Assembly: GCA_018240465.1 (NCBI GenBank)
Contig: JAFEFS010000068.1
Span: 1 to 64,000, forward strand
Length of the DNA stretch: 64,000 nucleotides
Direction: 5' to 3'
Source of the DNA: Pseudomonadota bacterium
Lineage (GTDB): Bacteria > Pseudomonadota > Gammaproteobacteria > Xanthomonadales > Rhodanobacteraceae
The notes below the pieces were generated by a model, which was not told the DNA's origin, made no database searches, and was given only the letters and a program-made list of their open reading frames with translations. Of the stretch, positions 18,794-34,479 are shown piece by piece. Each line of letters begins with the position of its first letter. The stretch's first letter is position 1. The position numbers were made by a program, and so were the translations under genes.

Positions 18794-20176
18794 TCAATCT
18801 GCGCCGGCCGGGTACGCGCTGATGCGCAGCGGCAACGGCGGCGCGATCGCATCGAGAACGGTCACGCGCAGCTTGCGCAGCGGCTGCGGCGCGACGCGCT
18901 CGAGCTTGCAGGCCCCGATCGTCGAACCTTGCGCGAGTTCCTGCCAATGGCCGTCGGCGGCCGCACCATGCAAGGCGTAATTCGATACGCGCTGGCCGCG
19001 CTCGATGTCTTCGCCAAGGCGCACGACGCCGATGCGCGCGACCGTGCCGAGGTCGACTTCGGCGACCGCGCCGCGCTCGCCGGTTTTTCTCCATGCCGAG
19101 GCTTTTCCGGCGGCGAGATCGCGCGCGAACAGTGCGTTGCGCGCCGCGCGCCATTCGCGCAGGCGCGCAACATCGTTCGCATGGAACCGGCCCTCGCGCG
19201 TCGGCGGCACGTTGAGCAACAGCTTGGAATTGTGCCCGACCGAGTGGAACCAGATTTCGTTCAAGGTTTCCACGCTCTTGAGCTTGTCGTCCTCGGCCGC
19301 GTGATGGAACCAGCCCGGGCGGATCGACACATCGGCCTCGGCCGGGCGCCAGACGCGGCCGCCCGCGTCGCCGTGCAGCAGCGCGTCGCTCACCTCGGGG
19401 CTGTCCGCGCCGGGATACGGCACGCGTGCGGGATTCACCATCGCCCAGTTCGGATAGCCGGCCATGCCGTTCTCGTTGCCGCACCAGCGCACGTCGGGAC
19501 CGGCGTCGGAATACATCACCGCGTTCGGCTGCAACCTGCGCACGAGCGCGTGGATGCGCGGCCAGTCGTAGGTCTGGTGCCTGCCGTTCGGGCCTTCGCC
19601 GTTGGCGCCGTCGAACCACAATTCGTGGATGTCGCCGTAGCGCGTCAGCAGCTCGCTCAACTGCTCGTGGTAGAAATCGTCGTAGCGCGCGCTGCCGTAA
19701 ACCGGCGAATTGCGGTCCCACGGCGAGCAGTACAGGCCGACGCGCAGGTTCTCGGCGCGACAGGCATCGGCGAACTCGCGCACGACATCGCCCTTGCCGC
19801 CGCGCCACGGGCTGCTCGCGACCGAGTGCTTCGTCGTCTTGGTGGGAAACAGGCAGAAGCCGTCGTGGTGCTTCGCGGTCAGGATCATCGCGCGCGCGCC
19901 GGCATCGCGCGCGCTGCGCGCCCACTGGCGTGCGTCGAGCGCGGTCGGGTTGAAGATCGCCGGATTTTCGTTGCCCAGCCCCCACTCACGATCGGTAAAC
20001 GTGTTGACTCCGAAATGAACGAACATCGCCAATTCGTCGCGCTGCCACAGCAGTTGCTGCGGCGTCGGCCGCGGCAAGGTGTTTGCCGCATCGGCGCAGG
20101 CTGCGCGATGCGGCAGCGCACCCGCACCGAGCGCAGCGGCGCCGGCAGCGATGAAGCGGCGGCGAGACAGGCTCAT
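18794..20176 (-). CDS. Alpha-L-fucosidase (GH29), Tat-exported
   Basis: Releases terminal L-fucose from glycans. The 460-residue protein starts MSLSRRRFIAAGAAALGAG, a twin-arginine signal, so it is exported folded. The catalytic barrel has FVHFGVNTFTDREWG, AKHHDGFCLFPTKTT and ELWFDGANGEGPNG, where the Asp is the family nucleophile. The C-terminal beta domain (VSNYALHGAAADGHWQELA) is of the kind found in alpha-1,3/1,4-fucosidases (GH29 subfamily B). Its ATG overlaps the stop of the upstream fucosidase gene in an ATGA junction, so the two are translationally coupled. Both probably respond to the operator at 21765. Confidence 0.9.
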   Translation of the reverse strand: MSLSRRRFIAAGAAALGAGALPHRAACADAANTLPRPTPQQLLWQRDELAMFVHFGVNTFTDREWGLGNENPAIFNPTALDARQWARSARDAGARAMILTAKHHDGFCLFPTKTTKHSVASSPWRGGKGDVVREFADACRAENLRVGLYCSPWDRNSPVYGSARYDDFYHEQLSELLTRYGDIHELWFDGANGEGPNGRHQTYDWPRIHALVRRLQPNAVMYSDAGPDVRWCGNENGMAGYPNWAMVNPARVPYPGADSPEVSDALLHGDAGGRVWRPAEADVSIRPGWFHHAAEDDKLKSVETLNEIWFHSVGHNSKLLLNVPPTREGRFHANDVARLREWRAARNALFARDLAAGKASAWRKTGERGAVAEVDLGTVARIGVVRLGEDIERGQRVSNYALHGAAADGHWQELAQGSTIGACKLERVAPQPLRKLRVTVLDAIAPPLPLRISAYPAGAD

Positions 20177-21651
20177 TGCGAACCTTCGCTGCTTGGGTGC
20201 AACTCGATCGCTTGGAAATCCAGCCCCAGATCCTCGGCGGCGTAGGCCGGATCGGCGAGACGAATCGACACGGGCATCGCGTTCGCCGCCGGAATGCGAA
20301 ACATGCCGACACCAGCCTTGTCGCCCAAATGCGCTCCACCGACCTCGCGCGCCTCATCGCCGACGGCGATGCGATAGCGTCGGTCGCCGCGCGCCTTGAC
20401 CCCGTCGATATGCAGGGTCAGCACCCGCGCACGCGGCGAGGAAATCGCCGCCGCCAGCACCACCGTCGTCGGATACTGCGTCGTGTAGCCGTTGCCGAAG
20501 CCGAAGCTCGTGCCCGCGGACCAATCGCTGCGCGCGATCCGGATCGATCCGTCCGCGGCAACGGCGATGACTTTTCCGGGCAGGTTCGGATGTCCGACAT
20601 CGAGCGCACCCGGATGCGCGCGCAGCCACGCACCGATGCCGTGCAGCACCTGTGCCTCGAACGGCACGATGGCGCCGTCGCCCATCGGCCCGATGTTGAG
20701 CAGGTAGTTGCCGCCGTGCGCGCGCGCCTCGACCAAGCCGTGCACAAGCTCGCGCACCTTGGCGTCGACGTCGTCGCGCTTCTGCCAGCTGCGATAGCCC
20801 CAGGTCTCGTGATAGATCGACGCCGGCACTTCGAACGGCGGCTGCAGGCCCGGCGGAGGCACTTCGTTGTCGCCGAGGGTGACGAAGTCACCGACGTTGT
20901 TCCAGATGCGTCCGTTGATCGCCGCGCGCGGTTGCAGCTCGCGCACGATCGCCGCGAATTTGCGGCTCTGCTCGGGTGTCGGCGCGGACATGTCGAACCA
21001 GACCTCCGCGATGGGACCGTAGTTGGTCATCAGTTCGCGCAGCTGCTGCTCGATCAACGGCTCCATCGACGCCGGGATCGGGTTGTTGTTGTCGGAATCG
21101 AACGCGTGCCCCGCATGCCAGTCGACCAGCGAGAAATACACGCCGAAGCCGAGGCCGATCCTGCGACACGCCGTCGACAGCAACTTGAGCGGATCCTTGC
21201 CGAACGGCGTGCGCCGGACGATGTTGTAGTCGGTCGACTTCGTGTCGAACATGGCGAAGCCGTCGTGGTGCTTGCTGGTGATGAGGATGTAGCGCGCGCC
21301 GGCGTCCTTGGCCAGCGCACAGATCGCATCGGCATCGAACTTCGCCGCGGTGAAGCGCGCGGCAACCTTGGCGTAGTCCGCGCGCGAGATGTTCGCGAAA
21401 CTCTGGATCTGCTCGGAATAGCCCCGGGTCACCGGCTTGCCCTGCCAGACGCCGCCGAGCTCAGAATACAGGCCCCAGTGGATGAACATGCCGAAGCCGA
21501 GCTGGCGCCAGGCTTCGATGCTCGGCGCGAGTGCAGGCACGCCGTGCGCGGCAACGACCGCCGGCAACGGTGGCGCGGTCTCCGCAGCGACGGCCGGCAC
21601 GAACAATGCCGCGAGCGACGGAATGAAAGCCAGCAACAACTTCAGGTACAC
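20173..21651 (-). CDS. Alpha-L-fucosidase (GH29), secreted
   Basis: A second GH29 enzyme of 492 residues from the GTG at 21651, which has an AGGA ribosome site 7 bases upstream; a TTG at 21726 would give 517. The N-terminus LKLLLAFIPSLAALFVPAVAA is a Sec signal peptide. Family blocks: WRQLGFGMFIHWGLYSELGG, TSKHHDGFAMFDTKS, EVWFDMSAPTPEQ (nucleophile Asp), and LLNIGPMGDG. Together with the Tat-exported paralogue, it suggests action on differently linked fucose residues in the periplasm or outside. The gene is divergent from cutC, with a perfect 20-base palindrome between them. Confidence 0.9.
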   Translation of the reverse strand: MYLKLLLAFIPSLAALFVPAVAAETAPPLPAVVAAHGVPALAPSIEAWRQLGFGMFIHWGLYSELGGVWQGKPVTRGYSEQIQSFANISRADYAKVAARFTAAKFDADAICALAKDAGARYILITSKHHDGFAMFDTKSTDYNIVRRTPFGKDPLKLLSTACRRIGLGFGVYFSLVDWHAGHAFDSDNNNPIPASMEPLIEQQLRELMTNYGPIAEVWFDMSAPTPEQSRKFAAIVRELQPRAAINGRIWNNVGDFVTLGDNEVPPPGLQPPFEVPASIYHETWGYRSWQKRDDVDAKVRELVHGLVEARAHGGNYLLNIGPMGDGAIVPFEAQVLHGIGAWLRAHPGALDVGHPNLPGKVIAVAADGSIRIARSDWSAGTSFGFGNGYTTQYPTTVVLAAAISSPRARVLTLHIDGVKARGDRRYRIAVGDEAREVGGAHLGDKAGVGMFRIPAANAMPVSIRLADPAYAAEDLGLDFQAIELHPSSEGSQ

Positions 21652-21728
21652 GGCGCTTCCTAGGATGGGCGTTTCGGCATGTGCATCGATACGGCGTTGT
21701 CGTCGCGACTTGATGGTGCGCTGCAATG

Positions 21729-21764: not shown

Positions 21765-21784
21765 TGTTTGGATCGATCCAAACA
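21765..21784. promoter_or_regulatory. LacI-type operator, site 1
   Basis: TGTTTGGATCGATCCAAACA is a perfect 20-base palindrome with the central CG typical of LacI-family operators. It sits between the divergent fucosidase operon and the cutC-GH92-regulator operon. The same core (T-T-x-GATCGATC-x-A-A) recurs twice upstream of the TonB receptor operon. The LacI-family protein encoded at 25115 is the obvious candidate to bind it. Confidence 0.75.
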
Positions 21785-21872: not shown

Positions 21873-22598
21873 ATGCCCCTGCTCGAAATCGCCGCCGCCT
21901 CGATCGCCTCCGCCCTTGCCGCGCAGGAAGGTGGCGCCGACCGTATCGAACTCTGCGCCAACCTGCGCGAGGGCGGCACGACACCGTCGCACGGCACGCT
22001 TGTCGAGGCGCGCAAGCGGCTGCGTATCCCGATCCACGTACTGGTGCGTCCGCGCGGCGGCGATTTTCTCTACAGCGAGCTCGAGGCCGAAGCCATGCTC
22101 GGCGACATCGAAGATTGCGTGCGCAGCGGCGCGGATGGCGTCGTCATCGGCGCGCTCGACGCGGACGGCAATGTCGATGTCGCGCTGTGCCGACGCCTCG
22201 TCGCGGCCGCCGGCACGCTCGACATTACCTTCCATCGCGCCTTCGACACGGCGCGCGATCCGGCCGCGGCACTCGAGGACATCATCGCGCTCGGCTGCGC
22301 GCGCGTGCTCACGTCGGGCGCGGCGGCGAGCGCGGCGCAGGGTGCCGATGCGATCGCGAACCATGTGCGCCGGGCGAGAGGCCGCATCGCAATCCTGGCC
22401 GGCGGCGGCGTCAGAGCCGACAACGTGCGCGAACTGGTCGCGCGCACGGGCGTGGTCGAGTGCCATTCCTCGGCCGGTACGACACGCCGCTCGGGCATGC
22501 GCCTGCGTCGCGAAGACCTTCCCGGACTGGAGCCGGATTTCGTGCAGACCGACGTTGCGCGCGTGCGCGCAATCGTTGCGGCGTTGCGTGAGGCCTGA
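21873..22598 (+). CDS. cutC: CutC family protein
   Basis: A TIM-barrel protein of 241 residues in the CutC family, historically linked to copper homeostasis but often found among glycan-degradation genes. Family blocks: LEIAAASIASALAAQEGGADRIELCANLREGGTTPS at the start, VLVRPRGGDFLYS, GVVIGALDADG, TFHRAFD, RVLTSG, ILAGGGV and ECHSSAG. It is the first gene of the plus-strand unit and precedes the GH92 mannosidase by 64 bases. That position points to a role in glycan metabolism (for example a lyase or hydrolase on a sugar acid), not copper; this is inference. Confidence 0.93.
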   Translation: MPLLEIAAASIASALAAQEGGADRIELCANLREGGTTPSHGTLVEARKRLRIPIHVLVRPRGGDFLYSELEAEAMLGDIEDCVRSGADGVVIGALDADGNVDVALCRRLVAAAGTLDITFHRAFDTARDPAAALEDIIALGCARVLTSGAAASAAQGADAIANHVRRARGRIAILAGGGVRADNVRELVARTGVVECHSSAGTTRRSGMRLRREDLPGLEPDFVQTDVARVRAIVAALREA

Positions 22599-22662: not shown

Positions 22663-25083
22663 ATGTCAAACCAGATACCAGCCGCCATCCTGCTCGCCGT
22701 CATGTCGTGCGCGGGCGCCGTCGCCGCGGAAGCGGACCCGATCGCCACGGTCAACACCTTCATCGGCACCCAGGACGAGGGCAACACGTTCCCGGGCGCG
22801 TCGGCACCGTTCGGCATGATCCAGGTCAGTCCGATCGGTTCGCACTACGCCGGCTGGCAATACACCGACAAGAAGATCCGCGGCTTCGGCCACTTTTTCC
22901 TTTCGGGCGCGGGCTGCTTCGAGCAGGGTGGCCTCATCTCGATCCTGCCGGTGACCGGCACGATCGGCGCCGGTGCCGGCTTCGCCTTCGACACGAGCAA
23001 ACCGGAGACCTTCGACCAGTCGCACTACGCCGCCGCCTACGAACACCAGGGCGAGATCGGCAGGCCCGGCTACTACAAGGTGCGCCTGACGGACTACGGC
23101 GGCATCAATGTGGAAACCAGCGCGCTGACCCGCGTCGGTGCTGAGCGCTACACGTTCGCCGGCGACGCGCAGGCGCAGATTCTCGTCAACCTCGGCCAGG
23201 CCACAGTTCGCCACCGCATCATCCACAGCGAGCTCAAGGTCGTCGGCGACCGCGCCGTCGAGGGCTCGCTCGAAGCGATCGGCTTTTGCGGCGGCAGCGC
23301 GTACACGACCTGGTTCCGGCTCGAATTCGACCGCCCATTCCGCGCGCACGGTACCTGGGGCAAGCTCAAGGCGATACCCGGCACGAACGAAACCAGCGCC
23401 GCCGAAGCCCCGAACGGCGCCTGGTTCACGTTCGACACCAAGGACTCGCGCAACGTGACGATCCTGAGTGCGGTCTCGCACGTCGATGCCGAAGGCGCGC
23501 GCAACAACCTGCGCGCGGAAGGCTACGGCGGGGGCAGGCCGCTCGCGTTCGACGAAGTGAAGCAACGCGCACAGGACGCCTGGCGCAAGGAGCTCGCCAG
23601 CGTGCGCGTGCGCGGCGGCACGCCGGAAGACCGCGTCGTGTTCACCACCTCGCTCTATCACAGCCTGCTGCAGCCGCTCACCGGCAGCGACGCCGACGGC
23701 CGCTACCGCGGCTGGGATGACGCGATCCACACTGCAGACGGCTGGACCTACTACGAATACTTCTCGCTCTGGGACACCTACCGTGCGCAGAACCAGTTGC
23801 TCGCGATCCTGCGTCCGCAGCGTGCGCGCGACATCGCCCGAACGGTGGTGACGATCGCCGAACAGGGTGGCTGGCTGCCACGCTGGGGCTATGCGAACTA
23901 CGAGACGAACACGATGACCGGCGACCCGGTCACGCCGTTCCTCGCCGATCTGTGGAAGTACGGCGCGCTGCAGGACGAGGAAGCCAAGCGTGCCTACGCT
24001 GCGCTCAAACAGAACGCCGACGGTGTACCGCCGCGTTCGTGGCGCGAGGAAGGTCGCGCCGGCAACCCCAACTACATCGCCCACGGCTTCGTCGAGTACG
24101 AGAAAACCTCGTCGAAAAAGAAGTCGATGGATGTCGACCAGGAGCACGCGGCCTCGGCGACGTTCGAGTACGCGCAGGCCGATTGCGCGCTCGCCCTGAT
24201 GGCGCGCGGCCTCGGCGAGAACGCCGATGCACGGCGCTGGGCGGCGCGCAGCGGCAACTGGAAGAACCTGTGGGATGCCTCGGTCGTGGACAACGAGCAC
24301 GGCGGCTTCAAGGGTTTCCCGCGGCCGAAAACGATCGATGGCAACTGGTACTCGCCAAAGGACAAGCCGTATCTGCCGTCGAGCGAGGACGGTTTCCACG
24401 AGGGCACCGCCTGGCAGTATCAGTGGCTCGAACAGCAGGATGTGCCATCACTGGTCAAGGCGATGGGCGGTGCCGAACAGACGCATAAACGTCTGGACGT
24501 CTTCTTCGCGCTGGACAAGCTGCTCGCCGATCCGCTGCATGCGGCGCGCAAGGAATGGGTGATGGGCGCCTACGACTACTACAATCAGTTCCGCTACAAC
24601 CCGAACAACGAACCCGATCTGCACAGCCCGTGGATGTACACGCTGACCGGTGCGCCATGGAAGACCGCGGTCGTGCTGCGCGCCGCGCAGACCCTGTTCA
24701 CCGACGGACCGAACGGCGTCACCGGCAACGACGACCTCGGCACGATGTCGGCCTGGTACCTGTTCAGCGCGCTCGGCCTCTATCCGGGCATGCCGGGCAC
24801 CGGCCAACTGCTGCTGCACGCGCCGCGCTTCGAGCACGTCGAGATCGACCTCGCCGGCGGCAAGGCGCTCGTGGTCGACGCACCCGGCGCCGACGGACGC
24901 AAGCTGCAATACATCGAAGCGGCACAGATCGACGGCCGTAGCCAGTCGAAAGTCTTTACCGACTGGGACACGCTGCGCCACGGCGCGACGATCCGCTACG
25001 CGCTGGCCGACAAGGCACCGGCCTGGGGCACGCATGTCGCCGACCTGCCGCCGGCGGCCTGCCCGAATACGCCGGTCCGTTGA
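22663..25083 (+). CDS. GH92 alpha-mannosidase
   Basis: A calcium-dependent exo-alpha-mannosidase of family GH92, with activity mostly on alpha-1,2 linkages in N-glycans or yeast mannan. The 806 residues start at ATG 22663 with an AAAAGGAA ribosome site 10 bases before; ATG 22606 is an alternative. The signal peptide is MSNQIPAAILLAVMSCAGAVAA. The N-terminal beta domain begins with the hallmark VNTFIGTQDEGNTFPGASAPFGM. The catalytic helical barrel contains DTYRAQNQLLAIL, and its end carries GNDDLGTMSAWYLFSALGLYPG, which holds the catalytic base acids. The regulator gene follows 31 bases later. With the fucosidases this suggests degradation of fucosylated, mannose-containing glycans. Confidence 0.95.
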   Translation: MSNQIPAAILLAVMSCAGAVAAEADPIATVNTFIGTQDEGNTFPGASAPFGMIQVSPIGSHYAGWQYTDKKIRGFGHFFLSGAGCFEQGGLISILPVTGTIGAGAGFAFDTSKPETFDQSHYAAAYEHQGEIGRPGYYKVRLTDYGGINVETSALTRVGAERYTFAGDAQAQILVNLGQATVRHRIIHSELKVVGDRAVEGSLEAIGFCGGSAYTTWFRLEFDRPFRAHGTWGKLKAIPGTNETSAAEAPNGAWFTFDTKDSRNVTILSAVSHVDAEGARNNLRAEGYGGGRPLAFDEVKQRAQDAWRKELASVRVRGGTPEDRVVFTTSLYHSLLQPLTGSDADGRYRGWDDAIHTADGWTYYEYFSLWDTYRAQNQLLAILRPQRARDIARTVVTIAEQGGWLPRWGYANYETNTMTGDPVTPFLADLWKYGALQDEEAKRAYAALKQNADGVPPRSWREEGRAGNPNYIAHGFVEYEKTSSKKKSMDVDQEHAASATFEYAQADCALALMARGLGENADARRWAARSGNWKNLWDASVVDNEHGGFKGFPRPKTIDGNWYSPKDKPYLPSSEDGFHEGTAWQYQWLEQQDVPSLVKAMGGAEQTHKRLDVFFALDKLLADPLHAARKEWVMGAYDYYNQFRYNPNNEPDLHSPWMYTLTGAPWKTAVVLRAAQTLFTDGPNGVTGNDDLGTMSAWYLFSALGLYPGMPGTGQLLLHAPRFEHVEIDLAGGKALVVDAPGADGRKLQYIEAAQIDGRSQSKVFTDWDTLRHGATIRYALADKAPAWGTHVADLPPAACPNTPVR

Positions 25084-25114: not shown

Positions 25115-26164
25115 ATGAAGAAGGCCGCAACCGGATCCGCGTCCACGCAGCGTGCGCCGACGGTCTGCGACATCGCCGCCGGCGCGGGCGTGTCGCGCGC
25201 GACGGTGTCGCTCGTGCTGCGCGAAAGCCCGCTCGTGCATGCGGACACACGCGCGCGCGTGCAGGCCGAGCTGAAGAAGCAGAATTACGTCTACAACCGC
25301 GGCGCGGCGAACCTGCGTCGGCGCACCTCGAATGCGATCGCGCTCGTGATCAACGACCTGGCAAACCCGTTCTTCGCCGAGTTCGCCACCGGCGTCGACG
25401 AGGCACTCGGCGAGCGCGGCTACGTCACCCTGCTCGGCAACACCGGCGAATCCCCGCAACGCCAGCAGGCCGTGCTTGCCTCATTGATGGAGCACACCCC
25501 GGCCGGACTGATCCTCTCCCCGGCGGAGCACAGCGATGCGGCGCAATTGCGCAGCGTGCTCGGCCCGCACCTTCCGGTGCTCGTGTTCAACCGCAAGATC
25601 GAAGGCGGCAACTGGGATTTCCTCGCCCTCGACAACCAGCACGGCGCCGAACTCGCCACCGCGCACCTGATCGAACGCGGACACCGCCGCATCGCATTCT
25701 ACGGCGGCCACGCGGATTCCAGTTCGTGCCGGCAGCGCCGTGCCGGTTTCGAGAAGGCGATGCGCGCGGCCGGTCTGCATGCGCGCAAGGAGTGGATGAT
25801 CGAGACCAAGCCGAGCCGCATCGATTCCGCGGCGAGCACGCCGGCGCTGTTCCAGGGCAAGCACCATCCGACCGCGGCGGTCTGCTACAACGATGCGGTC
25901 GCGCTGGGACTGATGCTAGGCCTGGTTGCGCGCAGCTTGCGTCCGGGGCGCGACTTCGCCCTGACCGGATTCGACGACATTCCCGAAGCCGCGCTCGCCT
26001 CGCCGCCGCTGACCACGATCGCCACACAACCGCGTGAGCGCGGACGGCAGGCGGCGGAGTTGCTGCTCGCCCAGCTCGGCGCGGCACACACCCGATTCCG
26101 CCAGACTACTGCGTCCGCGCAATTGCAGGTGCGCGCGAGCACTCCTCCGCCGACATGTACATGA
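25115..26164 (+). CDS. LacI-family transcriptional regulator
   Basis: A sugar-responsive repressor of 349 residues. The N-terminal helix-turn-helix reads TVCDIAAGAGVSRATVSLVLRES (about 16-38), followed by the hinge NYVYNRGAANLRR. The effector domain is a periplasmic-binding fold: IALVINDLANPFFAEFATGV, LLGNTGES, LALDNQHGAELATAHLIERGHRRIAFYGG, CYNDAVALGLMLGL and LTGFDDIPEAALASPPLTTI. ATG 25115 has an AGGGGGAAGG ribosome site. Three palindromes of one type flank its gene (21765, 26234, 26325), so it is the probable regulator of both glycan operons and the fucosidases. Effector unknown; mannose, fucose or an oligosaccharide are candidates. Confidence 0.93.
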   Translation: MKKAATGSASTQRAPTVCDIAAGAGVSRATVSLVLRESPLVHADTRARVQAELKKQNYVYNRGAANLRRRTSNAIALVINDLANPFFAEFATGVDEALGERGYVTLLGNTGESPQRQQAVLASLMEHTPAGLILSPAEHSDAAQLRSVLGPHLPVLVFNRKIEGGNWDFLALDNQHGAELATAHLIERGHRRIAFYGGHADSSSCRQRRAGFEKAMRAAGLHARKEWMIETKPSRIDSAASTPALFQGKHHPTAAVCYNDAVALGLMLGLVARSLRPGRDFALTGFDDIPEAALASPPLTTIATQPRERGRQAAELLLAQLGAAHTRFRQTTASAQLQVRASTPPPTCT

Positions 26165-26223: not shown

Positions 26224-26252
26224 TTGCAAGAGTATTTAGATCGATCTAATTT
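26224..26252 (+). promoter_or_regulatory. Candidate promoter of the TonB receptor operon
   Basis: TTGCAA (26224-26229), a 17-base spacer and TAATTT (26247-26252) resemble a sigma-70 promoter in a distinctly AT-rich gap. The palindrome at 26234-26251 lies exactly in the spacer and -10 region, so a bound repressor would exclude RNA polymerase. The leader to the ATG at 26380 is about 120 bases and holds a second operator. Confidence 0.5.
26234..26251. promoter_or_regulatory. LacI-type operator, site 2
   Basis: ATTTAGATCGATCTAATT contains the perfect 14-base palindrome TTAGATCGATCTAA (26236-26249). It shares the GATCGATC core with the 20-base operator at 21765. It overlaps the candidate promoter of the TonB receptor operon. 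Confidence 0.7.
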
Positions 26253-26324
26253 CCGCGGTATACGAACTTCCCGAGCAGCATCGCCGCAAATGGGGCGAGT
26301 CAAAGCTCGTTTTTTATCGAGTGA

Positions 26325-26342
26325 ATTTAGATCGTTCTAAAT
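26325..26342. promoter_or_regulatory. LacI-type operator, site 3
   Basis: ATTTAGATCGTTCTAAAT is an 18-base palindrome with one mismatched pair, the same motif as site 2, centred 91 bases downstream of it. Spacing of nearly nine helical turns would allow two repressor dimers to act on one face, perhaps by looping. It lies 38 bases before the receptor start codon. Confidence 0.68.
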
Positions 26343-26379
26343 CACGCCCATTCATTAAATCAGATCTGAGGGGATCGAG

Positions 26380-28920
26380 ATGAAACAGCCATCACGCACG
26401 CAAATCCACAATTCGCTATCCGTCGCAACCATTGTTGCCATCGCGTCAACCGCCACAGTGGCGCCGGTCGGCACCTTCGCACAGGAAACGGAACCCAAGA
26501 GCATGGAAACCATCCTCGTCACCGGTTCGCGCAACAGCACGCGCACGGTGGAGAACAGTTCCACACCGATCGACCTTATTAGCGCGAAGGACCTCGTCGC
26601 CACGGGCAAGGGCGATCTGTTGCAAGCACTGCTGACCAAGCTGCCGTCACTGAGCCTGCAGACTTATGGCAGTGGGTTGGACAATCAGGTCCGCGGCGCG
26701 ATGCTGCGCAATCTTTCTCCGGGCTACACACTGGTTCTGATCAACGGAAAACGCCGCAACGTTAGTCCCTACACCAGCGACACCAGCTTTCCCGGTCAAA
26801 ACTATACCGATATCGCGCTGATCCCGATGAGCGCGGTCGACCATGTCGAAGTGCTGCGCGATGGAGCCTCTGCTATCTACGGTTCCGACGCCATCACCGG
26901 CGTGGTCAACATCATACTTAAGTCTTCTCGCAGCGGTAGCAACGTGTCGGCCGAAGGCGGCACAAGCTTCGCCGGCGACGGCGTTCGCGGCAAATACGGG
27001 GCGAGCATCGGTCTGCCTCTTGGCCAAAATGGGTTTATCGATCTCTCTGCAGACATAACCAACCAGCAGGAAGCGAGCCGCACCAGACCCTATCGGGATA
27101 CCTACCTGGTGTACCCGGCGATCAACTCCAGCGGCACCCTAGTCAAGCTCTGCACCTACAACAGCCTGTGCCCCGGCACCACCGCCAACCCGGCCGAAGT
27201 CAACCGCGGCAACGTCAAGGACTACGCCTACAGCACCCCGCAATACGATCTGAAGTCCGCTGCATACAACCTTGAATATGCTCTCAGCGATTCGGCGAGG
27301 CTGTATTCGTTCGCGACTTATAGCGAGCGCCGGATGAGCACGCGCCAGAATACGCGAACGCCCTACACGACTTGGACTAGCAACGCCGGCTTGTACACAG
27401 TTTATCCGAACGGATTCACGCCTAGGGCGGTCGGCAAGGAAAAGGACTACACCACCGTACTCGGCCTGAAGGGCATGTCCGGCAGTTGGGATTGGGACTT
27501 GAGCGCCACCAATAACCGTGACACGTACAACGTATACACAAAGAACTCAGCCAACTACTCGCTCACCTATCCCGGCGCGCCTACCGACGTCTATTCGGGC
27601 AAACTGGCTTACACCCAGACCGTACTCAATCTCGACCTGCGCCGCGGCTTCGATGTCGCCGCACTCCATTCGCCATTGGATTTCAGCGCCGGGCTGGAGT
27701 ACCAGAACGAAGGCTACACCCGCGGTGCGGGAGAATATGCCTCCTGGTATGGCAGCGCCATCACTGCCTATTCAGGATATTTGCCAGCAGATGCCGTTCA
27801 TGGTACGCGCCACAGTCTGGCGGCTTACGTCGGCGCATCGGCCAACATCACCGAACGCTGGTACCTAGATATCGCCGGCCGCTTCGAAGACCATTCCGAC
27901 TTTGGCAACGTCTCCACCGGCCGGTTGACCACGCGTTTTGACTTCACCGACACGTTCGCGATCCGTGCCACCGTCAGCAATGGCTTTCACGCCCCATCGC
28001 TGGCTGCGGAGAACTTCCAACTCACTTCCGATACGCCAACCTACCGACAGATCAATGCCCGCGTCTCCTCGCCCGTGGCCCTTGCGTTGGGTGCGGTCCC
28101 ACTCAAACCGGAGAAATCCACGAACTACAGTTTGGGGTTCACATACTCGCCGGCGGACAATGTGCATCTGGCAATCGATGGCTACCAGATCGACATCCAC
28201 GACCAATTGGGTATGTCTACCTACGTCGGCTACGACCCTACCAACCCGACCCGGGTGGTGGACTTCTACGGCAACGTCCTGAATGCCAACCAACTGGCGA
28301 CCATCAATGCCCTGCTGAACAACGCCGGCTACACGGTCCCCGCCGGCAAGGGGCTGTTCGTCAGTTACCTGCGCACCATCGGCTCCACCCAGACTCGCGG
28401 CATCGAATTCACCGCGGACGGAACCATCGACAGTGACATCGGCAAGTGGACGTGGGACTACGCCCTCAATAGTGTCAAGACCGACATCACCCAAGCCGAG
28501 GGGATTCCACCGATTCTCGCCACTCTGCCGTACGTCGCGTTGCTTAACGAAGCGACCCAGTACAACCTGCGCTACCGGTCGCCTAAATACACCCAAGTCG
28601 CCGGGCTCGCCTGGACGCGCGACCAGGTAAACCTTGGGATTCGCTTTATTCAGTACGGGCCGATCAAGCGCCTCGGCAACAATTATCACTACACAATCTC
28701 ACCCAAACTGATCACCTCCTTGTCCGGTGGGTACGACTTCGGCAATGGCCTCAGCGTGACCGCAGGCGTCGATAACGTCTTCGACAAAAAGCCCAGCAAG
28801 ATTCCGGCTGCGGCCATCAGCGCCAGCAACCAGGCAACCTACCAATGGATGTACGACCCGCTGGATTCCATCAGCGCGCTGGGTGGTTACTACTATGCGC
28901 GCATCAATTACCGCTTCTGA
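26380..28920 (+). CDS. TonB-dependent outer membrane receptor (glycan operon)
   Basis: An energised outer-membrane importer of 846 residues. After a signal-like N-terminus ending about TFAQ come the TonB box region (METILVTGSR) and the plug domain: LLQALLTKLPSLSL, QVRGAMLRNLSPGYTLVLINGKRRN, VEVLRDGASAIYGSDAITGVVNIILK. The beta-barrel ends with the aromatic YYYARINYRF signature. First gene of a six-gene operon; only 15 bases separate it from the next. The two LacI-type operators upstream imply induction by the substrate it imports, probably an oligosaccharide or sugar conjugate. Base composition is lower in GC than that of the flanking genes, hinting at later acquisition. Confidence 0.93.
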   Translation: MKQPSRTQIHNSLSVATIVAIASTATVAPVGTFAQETEPKSMETILVTGSRNSTRTVENSSTPIDLISAKDLVATGKGDLLQALLTKLPSLSLQTYGSGLDNQVRGAMLRNLSPGYTLVLINGKRRNVSPYTSDTSFPGQNYTDIALIPMSAVDHVEVLRDGASAIYGSDAITGVVNIILKSSRSGSNVSAEGGTSFAGDGVRGKYGASIGLPLGQNGFIDLSADITNQQEASRTRPYRDTYLVYPAINSSGTLVKLCTYNSLCPGTTANPAEVNRGNVKDYAYSTPQYDLKSAAYNLEYALSDSARLYSFATYSERRMSTRQNTRTPYTTWTSNAGLYTVYPNGFTPRAVGKEKDYTTVLGLKGMSGSWDWDLSATNNRDTYNVYTKNSANYSLTYPGAPTDVYSGKLAYTQTVLNLDLRRGFDVAALHSPLDFSAGLEYQNEGYTRGAGEYASWYGSAITAYSGYLPADAVHGTRHSLAAYVGASANITERWYLDIAGRFEDHSDFGNVSTGRLTTRFDFTDTFAIRATVSNGFHAPSLAAENFQLTSDTPTYRQINARVSSPVALALGAVPLKPEKSTNYSLGFTYSPADNVHLAIDGYQIDIHDQLGMSTYVGYDPTNPTRVVDFYGNVLNANQLATINALLNNAGYTVPAGKGLFVSYLRTIGSTQTRGIEFTADGTIDSDIGKWTWDYALNSVKTDITQAEGIPPILATLPYVALLNEATQYNLRYRSPKYTQVAGLAWTRDQVNLGIRFIQYGPIKRLGNNYHYTISPKLITSLSGGYDFGNGLSVTAGVDNVFDKKPSKIPAAAISASNQATYQWMYDPLDSISALGGYYYARINYRF

Positions 28921-28935
28921 TTTCAGGAGACTCAC

Positions 28936-30942
28936 ATGACCGAGAAGAGGTACGAGAAGCTGGGCATGCTCGACAACATCGAGCGTCGCGATTTCGTCAA
29001 TGGCATGCTCAACAGTTCGCTGGCGTTTGCCGCTTCCGGCCTAGTCCCAAATGTGTTGGCCGCCGCTGCGGGAATACCGTCGACGTCGCCGACTACGAAC
29101 GCGGCCGCGGCGCCGAGCGGCCTATATCCGCCCGCACTGACCGGTATGCGTGGCAGCAGCTTCCCAGCGTACCAGGTCGGTCATGCCATGCGCGACGGTA
29201 CTTTGCACATCAATGAGGAGCAGATCCAAGACGCCGGCGAGGAATACGACCTCGTCGTTGTCGGCGGCGGCATAAGTGGGCTGTCCTCGGCTCTGTATTA
29301 CGCACGCGACAGTGGCGGTCAGGCGCGCACGCTGGTACTGGACAACCATGACGACTTCGGCGGCCACGCCAAGCGCAACGAGTTCGACTTCGGCGGCCGC
29401 ACCGTGATCTCCAACGCCGGCACCTTTAGTATCTCGCCCGGCAGCGAGAACGCACGCAGCTTCATGCAGTCGATAGGTATCGATGATATCGCCCGGCTCA
29501 ATCGTGACAACCAAGACACTTTTTTCTACCAGCGCCTCGGCATGGGACAGTCGGTTTACTACGACCAGGCTACTTTCAGCAAGGACTTGTTGATGGGCGA
29601 TCCTGCGCCGTGGATCGAATTCGTCCCGTTGCACGACCCGAATACCCCGCCCGACCAAACGAAACGATGGTCCGAGTTCCTTGCACGCGCACCGATGAAC
29701 GAGCGGGCGCGCAAGGACGTGTACCGGCTGTACACCGCGAAGACCGACTATCTGCCCGATATGACGCCTGCCGAGCGCGTGAAGAGGTTGCGCAGGATCA
29801 CCTACCGCGACTTCCTGCTGGACATTGCCAAGGTCGACCCGATGGCCGTCGCCTACCTGCGTGACCGCACCTTCGGCAGCGCGCGCGGGCTGTCCGGGAT
29901 GTCGGCGATTGCGGCGCGCCGACGCGGCATGCCGGGTTTTCTCGGCATGGATCTCGGCCCTGACAATCCGCTGCCACCGAGCGCATCGAGTCCACCGGCG
30001 GCGACGACCCACAAGCCCATTGCCAACTACCATTTTCCTGACGGCAACGCGACCATCGCCCGCCTGATCGTCCGCCAACTGATCCCCGAGGCGTTGCCCG
30101 GCAAGACACTCGAAGACTCGATCCTGCAACGTGCCGATTATTCGCGCTTGGACTTGCCCACCAACCGTAATCGCATCCGTCTGAGCAGCACCGCGGTTCA
30201 GGTCGCCAACACACCCAACGGCGTCAGCGTACTCTATTCCCGCGACGGCAAAATTCATCGCGTGCGCGCCCGCCACTGCGTGCTGGCGTGCTGGCACCAC
30301 ATCATCCCCTACATCTGCCAAGAATTGCCGAGCTGGCAGAAGGAAGCGCTGCGCTATCAGGTGCATGCGGTAAACCTTTGGGTCAACGTCTGGCTGCGCA
30401 ACTGGCGTGCGTTTCACAAGGCCGGCGCCTGCTTCATCAACGCCCCCAGCGGCTACTACTCTCAGATCCTGCTGGAATGCCCGGTGGACATCGGCGGCTA
30501 CAAGCGTTCGACCTCACCCGACGAACCGACCGTACTGACAATGCTGCGCGTGTTCGAGACACCGGGGCTCCCGGTCAAGGACCAATACCGCATCGCCCGC
30601 AACGAGATGTACGGCACCGACTTCGAGACCTACGAACTCCACGTGCGCGACCAGCTTTCGCGTATGCTCGGCCCATACGGCTTCGACGCTCGCCGCGACA
30701 TCGCCGGCATCACCATCAACCGCTGGGGACATGGTTATTCGTACATGTATTCCTCGGTATTCGACGAGTTCATCGACCGCGGTGAGCAGCCGCCGCACGA
30801 GCGCGCGCGAATGCCCTGCGGCAACATCGCCATCGCCAACTGCGATGCCGCCGCGCGCGACACTACGCCCGACGCCATCGACCAGGCGCGTCGGGCGGTC
30901 AGCGAGCTGCGGATGAACCTACGCAACAGCGTCAATTTCTGA
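28936..30942 (+). CDS. Tat-exported FAD oxidoreductase, spermidine dehydrogenase (SpdH)-like
   Basis: A 668-residue flavoprotein. The N-terminus KLGMLDNIERRDFVNGMLNS holds a twin-arginine motif (RRDF), so it should act in the periplasm. FAD binding is at about 108-145: YDLVVVGGGISGLSSALYYA, followed by VLDNHDDFGGHAKRNEF. YPPALTGMRGSSFPAYQVGHAMRDG and NRWGHGYSYMY near the end are family hallmarks of the SpdH group, whose founding member cleaves the secondary amine of spermidine. It lies between a TonB receptor and a sugar symporter in an operon with sugar enzymes, which is unexpected for a polyamine enzyme. The substrate may be an amine-linked sugar, but this is inference. The C-terminal half has no recognised sugar domain. 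Confidence 0.82.
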   Translation: MTEKRYEKLGMLDNIERRDFVNGMLNSSLAFAASGLVPNVLAAAAGIPSTSPTTNAAAAPSGLYPPALTGMRGSSFPAYQVGHAMRDGTLHINEEQIQDAGEEYDLVVVGGGISGLSSALYYARDSGGQARTLVLDNHDDFGGHAKRNEFDFGGRTVISNAGTFSISPGSENARSFMQSIGIDDIARLNRDNQDTFFYQRLGMGQSVYYDQATFSKDLLMGDPAPWIEFVPLHDPNTPPDQTKRWSEFLARAPMNERARKDVYRLYTAKTDYLPDMTPAERVKRLRRITYRDFLLDIAKVDPMAVAYLRDRTFGSARGLSGMSAIAARRRGMPGFLGMDLGPDNPLPPSASSPPAATTHKPIANYHFPDGNATIARLIVRQLIPEALPGKTLEDSILQRADYSRLDLPTNRNRIRLSSTAVQVANTPNGVSVLYSRDGKIHRVRARHCVLACWHHIIPYICQELPSWQKEALRYQVHAVNLWVNVWLRNWRAFHKAGACFINAPSGYYSQILLECPVDIGGYKRSTSPDEPTVLTMLRVFETPGLPVKDQYRIARNEMYGTDFETYELHVRDQLSRMLGPYGFDARRDIAGITINRWGHGYSYMYSSVFDEFIDRGEQPPHERARMPCGNIAIANCDAAARDTTPDAIDQARRAVSELRMNLRNSVNF

Positions 30943-30988
30943 AGCGGGCAACCAAGAGCAGTTTGTTCGTAACTGGGAGGAAAATCGA

Positions 30989-32275
30989 ATGCACTACAGC
31001 GAAAACTCCACGGTTCCAGCCAATGCCGAAATGCGCACCGCGCTGCTGCCGCTGGTGCTGATCATCAGCTTGTTCTTTTTCTGGGGCGCGGCGGCCAGCC
31101 TCAACGACATCCTGATCAAGCAGTTTAAGAAGGCCTTCGAGCTTTCCGACCTGCAGGCGGGGCTGGTGCAGAGCGCGTTCTATCTCGGCTATTTCCTGTT
31201 CGCGATGCCAGCGGCCATATTCATGCGCCGCTACAGCTACAAGGCAGCCGTGGTCCTCGGCCTGCTGCTGTTCGCGGCTGGCGCCTTCTTGTTCTATCCT
31301 GCGGCTGCAATCCATACCTATGGCTTGTTCCTGTTGGCGCTGTTCGTGATCGCCAGCGGCTTGGCGTTTCTCGAGACTTCGGCCAATTCGCTGGTGATCG
31401 TGCTCGGCCCGGCGGAAGGCGCAGCACGGCGCCTGAACTTGGCGCAGGCGTTCAATCCGCTCGGCGCAATGACCGGCGTGATGATCGGCTCGCACTTCAT
31501 CTTTTCCGGAATCGAGCATCGCGCGCAGGACCTCGCGGCGATGGTGCCGGCCGCGCGCACAGCATATTTCGTCGCCGAATCGCACGCCGTGCAGCTGCCG
31601 TATCTGGTGATCGGCATGGTAGTGGCGTTATGGGCGACACTGGTAGCGCGGACGACATTCCCAACCCCGCACGAAGAAGGCGGCCGGCACGAGGCCGGCA
31701 CAGGGGCACAATTGAAGGAACTGTTGCGCAATCGCAACTTCGTGTTCGCGGTGGTGGCACAGTTGTTCTACGTCGGCGCGCAAGTCGGCGTCTGGAGCTA
31801 CCTGATCCGCTATTTCCAGGACGTGGTGCCCGGCACGCCGGAAAAGACCGCAGCTGGGTTTCTGACGCTTTCGCTAGCGCTGTTCATGGGCGGACGCTTC
31901 GCCGGCTCCGCGTTGCTGCGTAAGCTGTCGCCGACGCGCCTGTTGGCCGCTTTCGCGCTGATCGATCTACTGCTCTGCCTCGTCGCAATCGCCTTTCCCG
32001 GCATGATCGGCCTTTACGCGCTGGTTGGCGTCAGCATCTTCATGTCGATCATGTTCCCGACGATCTTCGTGCTCGGCCTCGAGGGCATGGACGACGACCA
32101 TCGCAAGCTCGGTTCCTCGATGCTGGTTATGGCCATCATCGGTGGCGCATTGCTGCCGGCGCTGATGGGCGCTGTCTCGGATGCGGCCGGGATCCACTGG
32201 GCCTTCGCGGTACCCGCACTCGGCTTCGTCGTCATTCTCGCCTTCGCGCTACGTGCCCGGCATGTACTGCGCTGA
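30989..32275 (+). CDS. FucP-like MFS sugar:proton symporter
   Basis: An inner-membrane importer of 428 residues with 12 predicted membrane helices. It begins after a short hydrophilic tail with LLPLVLIISLFFFWGAAASLNDILIKQFKKAF, the fucose permease (FHS) subfamily signature. LVQSAFYLGYFLFAMPAA follows, and then the conserved FLETSANSLVIVLGP and RLNLAQAFNPLGAMTGV. Members carry L-fucose, mannose, glucose, fructose or GlcNAc, so the sugar cannot be assigned by sequence alone. It is preceded by an AACTGGGAGGAAAA ribosome site. In the operon it would bring in the sugar freed in the periplasm. Confidence 0.9.
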   Translation: MHYSENSTVPANAEMRTALLPLVLIISLFFFWGAAASLNDILIKQFKKAFELSDLQAGLVQSAFYLGYFLFAMPAAIFMRRYSYKAAVVLGLLLFAAGAFLFYPAAAIHTYGLFLLALFVIASGLAFLETSANSLVIVLGPAEGAARRLNLAQAFNPLGAMTGVMIGSHFIFSGIEHRAQDLAAMVPAARTAYFVAESHAVQLPYLVIGMVVALWATLVARTTFPTPHEEGGRHEAGTGAQLKELLRNRNFVFAVVAQLFYVGAQVGVWSYLIRYFQDVVPGTPEKTAAGFLTLSLALFMGGRFAGSALLRKLSPTRLLAAFALIDLLLCLVAIAFPGMIGLYALVGVSIFMSIMFPTIFVLGLEGMDDDHRKLGSSMLVMAIIGGALLPALMGAVSDAAGIHWAFAVPALGFVVILAFALRARHVLR

Positions 32276-32308
32276 CTCTTCATTCGTCTGGATTTTTCAG
32301 GAGACTCC

Positions 32309-33145
32309 ATGTCATCGATTCCATCCGTTCCGCTCAACGACGGCCAGCGTATCCCGCAACTCGGGCTGGGCATGTGGCAGGTTGCGGACGCCGACGTGCC
32401 GCGTGTGCTCGGCACCGCATTCGAACTGGGCTATCGCCACATCGACGGCGCCGCCGCCTACGGCAACGAGGAGGGCCTCGGCCGCGCGATCCACGCCTCC
32501 GGCCTGCCGCGCTCCGAGTTGTTCGTCACCACGAAGCTGCGCAATCCCGACCAAGGCCGCGAGCGGGCGCTGAAGGCGCTCGATGCCAGCCTCGCCAAGC
32601 TTGGACTGGATTACGTCGATCTCTACTTGATCCATTGGCCGTGCCCGCGCCACGACCGCTTCGTCGAAAGCTGGGAGGCGTTGATGAAGGCGCGGGAGGC
32701 CGGCAAAGTGCGCTCGATCGGCGTATCCAACTTCCGCGCACAGGATATCGAGCGCGTTGTCGCCGCCACTGGCGTGGTGCCGGTGGTTAACCAGATCGAA
32801 CTGCATCCGATGTTGCAGCAAGTTGAACTGAGTGCTTACAACAAGACGCACGGCATCGTCACCGAGGCTTGGAGCCCGCTGGCGCATGGCGGCGCGCTGC
32901 TCGCCGACCAGGCATTGCAGACGATCGCCGCCAAGCATGGCAAGACCACTGCGCAGATCACCCTGCGCTGGCACATCCAGGCGGGTCGGGTGATCTTCCC
33001 GAAGTCGGCCACGCCGGCGCGTATCGACGAAAACGCAGCGATCTTCGACTTCGCGCTCGACGCCGACGACATCGCCGGGATCGACGCACTCGACAACGGC
33101 ACGCGACTGGGGCCGGATCCCGCCGACTACGAGGACATGGGCTGA
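32309..33145 (+). CDS. Aldo/keto reductase
   Basis: An NADPH-dependent carbonyl reductase of 278 residues with a TIM-barrel fold. The complete catalytic tetrad is visible: Asp46 and Tyr51 (IDGAAAYGNE), Lys76 (FVTTKL) and His109 (LIHWPCP). The cofactor-binding end reads VIFPKSATPARIDENAAIFDF. This is the 2,5-diketo-gluconate reductase-like branch, which reduces sugar-derived ketones and aldehydes. It sits between a sugar symporter and a sugar kinase, so a role in reducing a keto-sugar to a phosphorylatable sugar is plausible. ATG 32309 follows a CAGGAGA ribosome site. Confidence 0.92.
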   Translation: MSSIPSVPLNDGQRIPQLGLGMWQVADADVPRVLGTAFELGYRHIDGAAAYGNEEGLGRAIHASGLPRSELFVTTKLRNPDQGRERALKALDASLAKLGLDYVDLYLIHWPCPRHDRFVESWEALMKAREAGKVRSIGVSNFRAQDIERVVAATGVVPVVNQIELHPMLQQVELSAYNKTHGIVTEAWSPLAHGGALLADQALQTIAAKHGKTTAQITLRWHIQAGRVIFPKSATPARIDENAAIFDFALDADDIAGIDALDNGTRLGPDPADYEDMG

Positions 33146-33155
33146 GCGCGGACCG

Positions 33156-34145
33156 ATGGGTATACACAGAAGAATCGTCTGCTTCGGCGAGGCGCTGATC
33201 GACATGCTGGCGCAACCGCCCGCTACGCCGGATGCGCCGCGCGCATTTCTGCAGTTTGCCGGCGGCGCGCCAGCAAACGTCTCGGTCGCGGTGGCGCGGC
33301 TCGGCGGCGACAGTCATTTCGTCGGCATGCTCGGCAACGACATGTTCGGTGATTTCCTACTGCAGAGCCTACGCGAGGCGGGTGTCACCACCGACGGCGT
33401 AGTGCGTACTGACAAGGCGCGTACCGCGCTGGCCTTCGTCGCGCTGGATGCGCGCGGCGAGCGCAGCTTCAGTTTCTACCGACCTCCGTCGGCGGACATG
33501 CTGTTCCGCGCCGCGCACTTCGACCGGCTCAGGTTCGAGGATATCCGCCTGTTCCATGTCTGCTCCGTCTGCATGACCGAAGAGCAGATCGCACGGACCA
33601 CATTCGAGGGCATGCGCCGCGCGCGCGCGGCGGGAGCGCTGGTCAGCTTCGACATGAACCTGCGGCCAATGCTGTGGCCGCGAGATGAGGATCCGGCATC
33701 GCGCTTGTGGCAGGCATTGGCACTGGCCGATATGGTCAAGCTCTCGCGCGAGGAGTTCGATTGGCTCTGCGACGCCGCCCACGCCGACGGCGCGGCGGTG
33801 ATCGAACGCCTGTGGCAGGGCAACGCGCAGTTGCTTCTGGTCACCGACGGCGACCATCCGCTGCGCTGGCATACGCGCGAAGACAGCGGCGAAGTGCCGG
33901 CGTTCCGAGTACAGATGCAGGACAGCACCGCGGCAGGCGACGCCTTCGTCGGCGGATTGCTGTACCAGCTTGCGCGGCTGCCCGACGGCACGGCGCTGAG
34001 TACGTTCTGCCGCGACCGTGCGGCACTGGAGCAAAGCGTGCGGTTTGCCGCCGCCGCCGGTGCGCTCGCAGTGACGCGCAAAGGCGCCTTCGCCGCGATG
34101 CCGACGCGGGACGACGTGCTAGCCCTGATCGAAGCACAGTCGTGA
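33156..34145 (+). CDS. PfkB-family sugar kinase, fructokinase-like
   Basis: An ATP-dependent kinase of 329 residues. The N-terminal PfkB signature reads FAGGAPANVSVAVARLGGDSHFVGMLGNDMFG. The C-terminal signature DSTAAGDAFVGGLLYQL holds the catalytic Asp of the GD motif. The opening VCFGEALIDM and FDMNLRPMLWP match fructokinases more than ribokinases or KDG kinases. It starts 11 bases after the reductase stop. Fructose, or a similar ketohexose, is the likely substrate, which would deliver fructose 6-phosphate to central metabolism. Confidence 0.9.
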   Translation: MGIHRRIVCFGEALIDMLAQPPATPDAPRAFLQFAGGAPANVSVAVARLGGDSHFVGMLGNDMFGDFLLQSLREAGVTTDGVVRTDKARTALAFVALDARGERSFSFYRPPSADMLFRAAHFDRLRFEDIRLFHVCSVCMTEEQIARTTFEGMRRARAAGALVSFDMNLRPMLWPRDEDPASRLWQALALADMVKLSREEFDWLCDAAHADGAAVIERLWQGNAQLLLVTDGDHPLRWHTREDSGEVPAFRVQMQDSTAAGDAFVGGLLYQLARLPDGTALSTFCRDRAALEQSVRFAAAAGALAVTRKGAFAAMPTRDDVLALIEAQS

Positions 34146-34176
34146 CGCATCGAAATTCAACGACAAGGAAAATACG

Positions 34177-34479
34177 ATGACCGACAGCACGCCCGTTGTT
34201 CTGTACGCCACCTTCACCGCCACGGCTGGCAACGCCGCCGCCGTCACGGCCCTTTTGAAGGATTACGCCGTGGCCGTCCGCAGAGAGGCCGGCAACGTGC
34301 TGTTCGAGGCCTCGTGCAAGGCGGACGAACCCGAGTCCTTCTTCGTATACGAGGAATATGCTGACGAAGCCGCCTTCCAGGCGCATCTAAGCGCGCCATA
34401 CGGCGCTTCTTTCAACGCTGCGCTTGCCCCACTCATCGTGGAACACCAGTCCAAGCTGACGTTCCTGTTACGGGTATGA
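34177..34479 (+). CDS. ABM-domain protein (YgiN-like monooxygenase family)
   Basis: A 100-residue single-domain protein with the ferredoxin-like ABM fold: VVLYATFTATAGNAAAVTALL at the start, EAGNVLFEASCKADEPESFFVYEEYADEAAFQAH in the middle, and a C-terminal strand KLTFLLRV. Relatives act as cofactor-free monooxygenases or small stress proteins, usually as dimers. It is the last gene of the TonB receptor operon, 31 bases after the kinase, with a GACAAGGAAAA ribosome site. Its role in sugar use is unclear; handling of a reactive dicarbonyl or quinone by-product is a guess. Confidence 0.82.
   Translation: MTDSTPVVLYATFTATAGNAAAVTALLKDYAVAVRREAGNVLFEASCKADEPESFFVYEEYADEAAFQAHLSAPYGASFNAALAPLIVEHQSKLTFLLRV

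Follow-up and report, generated by a model that had tools for sequence, protein, structure and literature searches.

A SpdH-family flavoprotein operon in the place of mannose isomerase genes suggests a possible redox route from mannose to fructose

Introduction

The systems closest to the locus reported here are the mannoside (Man) pathway of Shewanella, encoded by manR, manP, manI and manK (PMC2996990), and an operon of relatives of our genome, which typically comprises genes for a GH92 alpha-mannosidase, a LacI-family regulator, a FucP-type permease, a PfkB-family kinase and a mannose isomerase (ManI). The closest solved structures to this ManI are 3gt5 and 5x32. The latter is the D-mannose isomerase of Marinomonas mediterranea, and an AGE-family enzyme of Pseudomonas geniculata, modelled on 5x32, interconverts mannose and fructose (PMC7762179). 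Judged by its sequence, the ManI of the relatives is thus a D-mannose isomerase type of protein.

A redox pair can also take over from an aldose isomerase, as in the fungal xylose reductase/xylitol dehydrogenase route, the counterpart of xylose isomerase, in which the reductase is an aldo/keto reductase (AKR). We know of no enzyme of the SpdH family that oxidises a sugar, the characterised members acting on polyamines. The SpdH of Pseudomonas aeruginosa (7d9f) cleaves the C–N bonds of polyamines and binds heme b through His54 and His562 (PMC12564564).

Here we describe a locus in a stretch of 64,000 nucleotides (the window; positions 1 to 64,000 of contig JAFEFS010000068.1, assembly GCA_018240465.1, from the Rhodanobacteraceae). 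The genome that carries it is referred to as G000 and its relatives as G007, G010, G014, G047, G056 and G217. An earlier note on the window had described an operon of six genes and suggested that it serves a sugar joined through an amine, which is cleaved in the periplasm to a dicarbonyl that is imported, reduced and phosphorylated. The operon is a variant, new and rare, of a mannose-utilisation system that is already known, and the hypothesis of a redox bypass is a coherent one. It seems quite possible, and we propose tentatively, that the cassette bypasses mannose isomerase by oxidation, import and reduction, taking mannose to fructose in two compartments. With rather more reserve we suggest that this is an undescribed route, in which a SpdH flavocytochrome, a fucose-type symporter and an AKR replace mannose isomerase and which would give the SpdH family its first sugar substrate.

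Results and Discussion

A six-gene cassette shared by three genomes

The ORF list confirmed the genes, order, strand and span (26380–34479) of the operon as given in the earlier note, and the families assigned there to the six proteins agree with our profile and homology searches:

26380–28920, + strand: TonB-dependent outer-membrane receptor, cassette gene 1 (Pfam Plug and TonB barrel)
28936–30942, + strand: Tat-type SpdH-family FAD/heme b dehydrogenase, the proposed periplasmic sugar dehydrogenase (phmmer match to 7d9f; FAD/NAD-binding Rossmann fold)
30989–32275, + strand: FucP-type proton symporter (NCBIfam TIGR00885, MFS/FucP; tree; residues)
32309–33145, + strand: aldo/keto reductase of the DkgA (2,5-diketogluconate reductase) kind, the proposed glucosone reductase (Pfam, NCBIfam and PDB matches)
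33156–34145, + strand: PfkB-family kinase, a probable fructokinase (best solved match 3ljs)
34177–34479, + strand: ABM-domain protein, weakly LsrG-like (Pfam ABM, 58.5 bits)

The genes are separated by only 15, 46, 33, 10 and 31 nt, which is consistent with a single transcript. The same six genes are found in the same order in two further genomes, G010 and G217, where they follow a LacI gene (LacI–TonB receptor–SpdH–FucP–AKR–PfkB–ABM) and are flanked by unrelated genes in each; the cassette is therefore a unit and the grouping is not due to chance. Across the 233 genomes searched within the family, flavoproteins of high identity were seen only in G010 (88% identical to the G000 copy) and G217 (about 80–81%), besides a paralogue in G000 itself at 55–56%. 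When 84,980 species genomes were scanned, G010 held the sole copy at that level among the matches listed, the next listed homologue being 54% identical. The cassette proteins of G000 and G217 are 65–80% identical, and the six genes have nonetheless been kept together. No further cassette was found in a sample of 369 genomes of the class, a viral collection searched with PfkB gave no match, and the SpdH homologues returned by a plasmid search were all distant and in other contexts.

The cassette has displaced PfkB and ManI behind a resident regulator

The span of the six genes leaves out the LacI gene, its operators and the co-regulated GH92 and GH29 genes, on which the interpretation of the locus largely depends. 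The genes upstream are:

18794–20176, − strand: GH29a, alpha-L-fucosidase-like, a probable co-regulated neighbour (ORF; assigned to GH29 by sequence reading, with no HMM)
20173–21726, − strand: GH29b, a second GH29-like gene and probable co-regulated neighbour (ORF; GH29 by sequence reading)
21873–22598, + strand: CutC-family TIM-barrel protein, gene 1 of the mannosidase operon (Pfam CutC, 246.5 bits)
22663–25083, + strand: GH92 alpha-mannosidase (Pfam GH92, 463 bits; NCBIfam TIGR01180, 487 bits)
25115–26164, + strand: LacI-family regulator of the type found in mannose isomerase operons; resident, outside the imported cassette (Pfam LacI and Peripla_BP_3)

The GH92 alpha-mannosidase is the likely source of mannose. 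In G007 and G014 GH29a lies beside the mannose-isomerase locus, and GH29b is likewise conserved in both. The CutC-family gene heads the GH92 operon in the window, G007 and G014; the name 'copper homeostasis' that goes with CutC looks unrelated to the glycan context here.

In G007 and G014, which belong to the same genus, tblastn places the genes in the order GH92–LacI–PfkB–ManI. At the DNA level the window and G007 can be aligned as far as the LacI stop codon; beyond it G007 continues directly with PfkB–ManI, and in the window the cassette starts where this homology ends. From 26374 to 34467 the window aligns to G010 (84.8% over 8,127 nt). The GC content of CutC, GH92 and LacI is 66–71% and that of the first three cassette genes 58.6–62.4%, with 58.6% for the TonB receptor and about 62% for SpdH and FucP. 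Many relatives have a homologous PfkB, 57–65% identical to that of the cassette, followed by an AGE-family ManI, and most of the relatives with this kinase have ManI beside it. In the PfkB tree the three cassette kinases cluster together, while in the LacI tree the regulator of the window groups with those of G007 (88% identical) and G014 (83%) and the cassette regulators of G010 (60%) and G217 (58–59%) form a lineage of their own. Taken together, the two trees, the breakpoint in the DNA and the drop in GC show that a transferable cassette displaced PfkB–ManI behind the resident LacI regulator in G000.

There is no mannose isomerase in the cassette operon, and none of the ManI kind was found in the G000 genome, the completeness of which is estimated at 100%. 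On the family model the sole AGE-family protein of G000 reaches 142.7 bits and the isomerases about 400; it shares 27% identity with the isomerases. Its gene has as neighbours (L219, contig C88, 5305–10163) what look, from reading the sequence, like genes for a dihydrodipicolinate synthase-family lyase and a kelch-repeat protein, and the locus looks more sialic acid-like than mannose-like. ManI was not found in G010 either, which is weak evidence as this genome is 85% complete. A strict anti-correlation between cassette and ManI was rejected, since G217 has the cassette plus a FucP–PfkB–ManI locus on another contig; the two are thus not mutually exclusive, and in G217 at least the cassette may be meant for a different sugar or condition. 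The earlier note had named a neighbourhood conserved without the flavoprotein as evidence against its pathway. This is seen only in part: relatives do have LacI–(FucP)–PfkB without SpdH, but these loci have ManI instead and are without this AKR beside PfkB.

The regulator and its operators

The whole 3.67-Mb genome of G000 was searched for the palindrome TTTAGATCGATCTAAA, allowing two mismatches, alongside a control pattern. The control gave no site, and the palindrome gave three, all inside the window:

21767–21782, no strand: LacI operator TTTGGATCGATCCAAA, between the divergent GH29 and CutC–GH92 genes (whole-genome pattern search)
26235–26250, no strand: operator 1 of the cassette, TTTAGATCGATCTAAT (pattern search)
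26326–26341, no strand: operator 2 of the cassette, TTTAGATCGTTCTAAA (pattern search)

Operators of the same type precede the cassette in G010 and G217 as well as in G000, and are found at the mannosidase/ManI loci of G007, G014, G047 and G056; the only ones in G010 are the two of the cassette. The pair before the TonB receptor gene (26235–26341 in the window, 14587–14696 in L012 and 14485–14604 in L217) is spaced by about 91–104 bp in all three cassettes, with 94 bp in G010 and 104 bp in G217, and could allow repression by looping. With mannose regulons of the LacI–FucP–PfkB–ManI kind the locus has in common an orthologous LacI and the operator, but not the AGE-family mannose isomerase. The effector pockets were compared at what we take to be the inducer-pocket positions and sequence of E. 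coli LacI. At nearly all of these positions the regulators of the cassettes and of the ManI operons have the same residue, and the few positions that vary do so within the ManI-operon group too. The simplest reading of these sequences would be that both kinds of regulator answer a single effector, either mannose or one of its products.

The same logic of oxidation, import and reduction could be directed at another hexose or a hexitol, or could start at C3 with the ABM protein moving the carbonyl, the regulator sensing a fructose/mannose signal that both routes share. Such a reading would account for G217, where cassette and ManI locus are found together, for the cassettes of G010 and G217, which are isolated, with no GH92 adjacent and a LacI lineage of their own, for a permease that is of the fucose and not the mannose type, and for the weak likeness of the ABM protein to LsrG, a dicarbonyl phosphate enzyme. 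We consider it rather unlikely, as the G000 cassette occupies the exact place of PfkB–ManI, downstream of GH92 and of a mannose-type LacI that was already resident, and the effector pocket of the LacI is nearly unchanged.

The flavoprotein keeps the heme ligands of SpdH but not the two mutated residues

Residues 43–658 of the flavoprotein match P. aeruginosa SpdH with E = 8e-138 (phmmer). The homology is over the full length and the two proteins share the FAD fold, a putative N-terminal export signal and both heme b histidines, His54 and His562 being H83 and H599 in the cassette protein; these are also invariant in 49 other aligned homologues. The putative signal has an N-terminal twin-arginine motif, ERRDFVNG (RR = residues 17–18), of which ERRDF (residues 16–20) is kept in the three cassettes, though the Pfam TAT_signal model was not reported at E 0.001. 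The protein is a member of the SpdH family and probably acts as a heme/FAD dehydrogenase.

Where the cassette protein differs from P. aeruginosa SpdH, apart from its context in a sugar operon, is at Asp282 and Tyr443. Amongst the deposited SpdH sequences 7d9i carries D282A and 7d9j Y443A, and from their having been mutated for structures we infer that the two residues bind the substrate. Their positions are occupied by G314 and W482 in the window, and G010 and G217 have the same two residues. Tyrosine is found at the Tyr443 position in 43 of the 49 other homologues and tryptophan only in a small sister clade, which includes the G000 paralogue and the homologues from Kozakia baliensis and Novosphingobium nitrogenifigens. 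As only 8 of the 49 have an aspartate at the Asp282 position, its loss alone is not special. The polyamine site would not appear to be conserved in the cassette protein.

These residues bear on the possibility that the SpdH homologue cleaves the C–N bond of an amine-linked sugar, an Amadori compound or glycosylamine, in the periplasm, and that the resulting dicarbonyl is imported, reduced and phosphorylated. Cleavage of Amadori compounds, as by amadoriases, would yield glucosone, and the downstream genes fit equally well. The family enzyme does cleave such bonds in polyamines (PMC12564564). However, the residues mutated in the structures of the polyamine enzyme are not conserved, the cassette is without a nitrogen-handling gene, and neither the exact replacement of ManI nor the shared mannose-type regulon needs an amine. 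We regard this explanation as improbable. Of the pathway in the earlier note, the passage through a dicarbonyl, symport, reduction to a ketohexose by the AKR and the PfkB step fits the replacement of ManI plus fructokinase. The amine-joined sugar is unsupported and probably wrong; regulator, operator and mannosidase all point to plain mannose.

Permease, reductase, kinase and ABM protein

The symporter scores 418.9 bits against TIGR00885 (cut-off 280.4) and in the tree is the sister of the L-fucose permeases; an L-fucose-type copy in the same genome is 65% identical, and the FucP-type permeases of the ManI operons are 36–41% identical. Asp46 and Glu135 of E. coli FucP are kept. The N42–N43 pair, which L-fucose permeases share, has become A–S in each of the three cassettes; N–N is present in five fucose-type permeases from relatives. 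L-Fucose was considered as the cassette substrate and is weakened as a candidate, since G000 has a separate L-fucose-type permease with N–N and the cassette permease has lost the pair. L-Fucose and D-arabinose have a ring configuration in common, and the D-arabino configuration is that of fructose and glucosone; because of this match it is reasonable that a fucose-type permease may have been adapted to a 2-keto hexose.

For the AKR the best NCBIfam model is DkgA, with a score below the cut-off, and residues D46, Y51, K76 and H109 are invariant across the three cassettes. The best solved match of the PfkB is 3ljs, 'Fructokinase' (E 4e-138), and its best NCBIfam model is also fructokinase, at 251.8 bits for a cut-off of 450. 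The ABM protein reaches 29.5 bits against the LsrG model, far under the cut-off of 135, and E 8e-7 against the LsrG structure 2gff. The substrate of LsrG is a phosphorylated dicarbonyl. From this weak likeness, suggestive only, the ABM protein may possibly handle the dicarbonyl or its isomers.

Mannose might also be phosphorylated directly, by the PfkB, a ROK kinase or glucokinase, and the 6-phosphate then isomerised, with SpdH and AKR unrelated and removing, for instance, an amine or aldehyde co-released from the glycan. A ROK kinase is indeed present in G000 and could give mannose another entry, and relatives of SpdH are scattered across many unrelated contexts. The ROK kinase is, however, equally present in G007 and G014, which have ManI; each of the three cassettes retains SpdH and AKR, placed between the receptor and the kinase; and the PfkB is most like fructokinases. 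Direct phosphorylation therefore seems improbable.

A possible oxidise, import and reduce route

In the bypass that we propose, the net job would be mannose to fructose, because the cassette replaces ManI in G000, and the order would be oxidation, import and then reduction, as the oxidase is predicted to be exported and the reductase is cytoplasmic. The TonB receptor would take up the sugar or a glycan fragment and GH92 would release mannose. In the periplasm the SpdH-family FAD/heme b dehydrogenase would convert mannose to D-glucosone, the simplest oxidation being at C2, and pass the electrons to the respiratory chain. The oxidised product would enter through the FucP-type symporter; a changed fucose-type permease, and not the mannose-type FucP of the ManI operons, would be in keeping with the import of a compound other than mannose. 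In the cytoplasm the AKR would use NAD(P)H to reduce the aldehyde of glucosone, giving D-fructose, and the PfkB would convert this to fructose 6-phosphate. No step would require an amine. A polyol route, with the AKR forming mannitol and SpdH then oxidising it, was rejected for the locations of the two enzymes, the AKR being cytoplasmic and SpdH predicted to be exported.

The region resembles the LacI–FucP–PfkB–ManI operon and the Shewanella Man pathway closely: LacI, operator, GH92, a permease of the FucP superfamily and a kinase giving hexose 6-phosphate are common to it and the operon of the relatives. It differs from that operon in having the SpdH-family dehydrogenase and AKR instead of ManI, a permease of the fucose type, its own TonB receptor and the ABM protein. 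Unlike in the fungal xylose route, the oxidation would precede the reduction and take place outside the inner membrane, through a respiratory flavocytochrome, and the intermediate would be a dicarbonyl and not a polyol. A literature search found no paper joining spermidine dehydrogenase, mannose and TonB uptake, and a search on glucosone found no such pathway.

If the proposal is correct, an isomerase has been displaced in place by an oxidase–reductase pair, which would make the step irreversible and send electrons to respiration. The swap amounts to a natural test, in which sister species have the same regulator and locus and two alternative routes.

Neighbours of other SpdH homologues

SpdH-like proteins, named for the polyamine enzyme, occur commonly in soil Acidobacteria and sphingomonads, among others, and were a role in sugar oxidation true many annotations would read differently. 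The G000 paralogue, which belongs to the Trp clade, has no obvious signal peptide and is followed by a Tat multicopper oxidase (Pfam; L002, contig C45, 21–3338), which may be its electron acceptor. On a plasmid of Kozakia baliensis an SpdH homologue also adjoins a multicopper oxidase. On a plasmid of Duffyella gerundensis (L230, 7995–11097) a cytochrome c gene comes after that of the SpdH homologue, which is consistent with the family passing electrons to periplasmic carriers.
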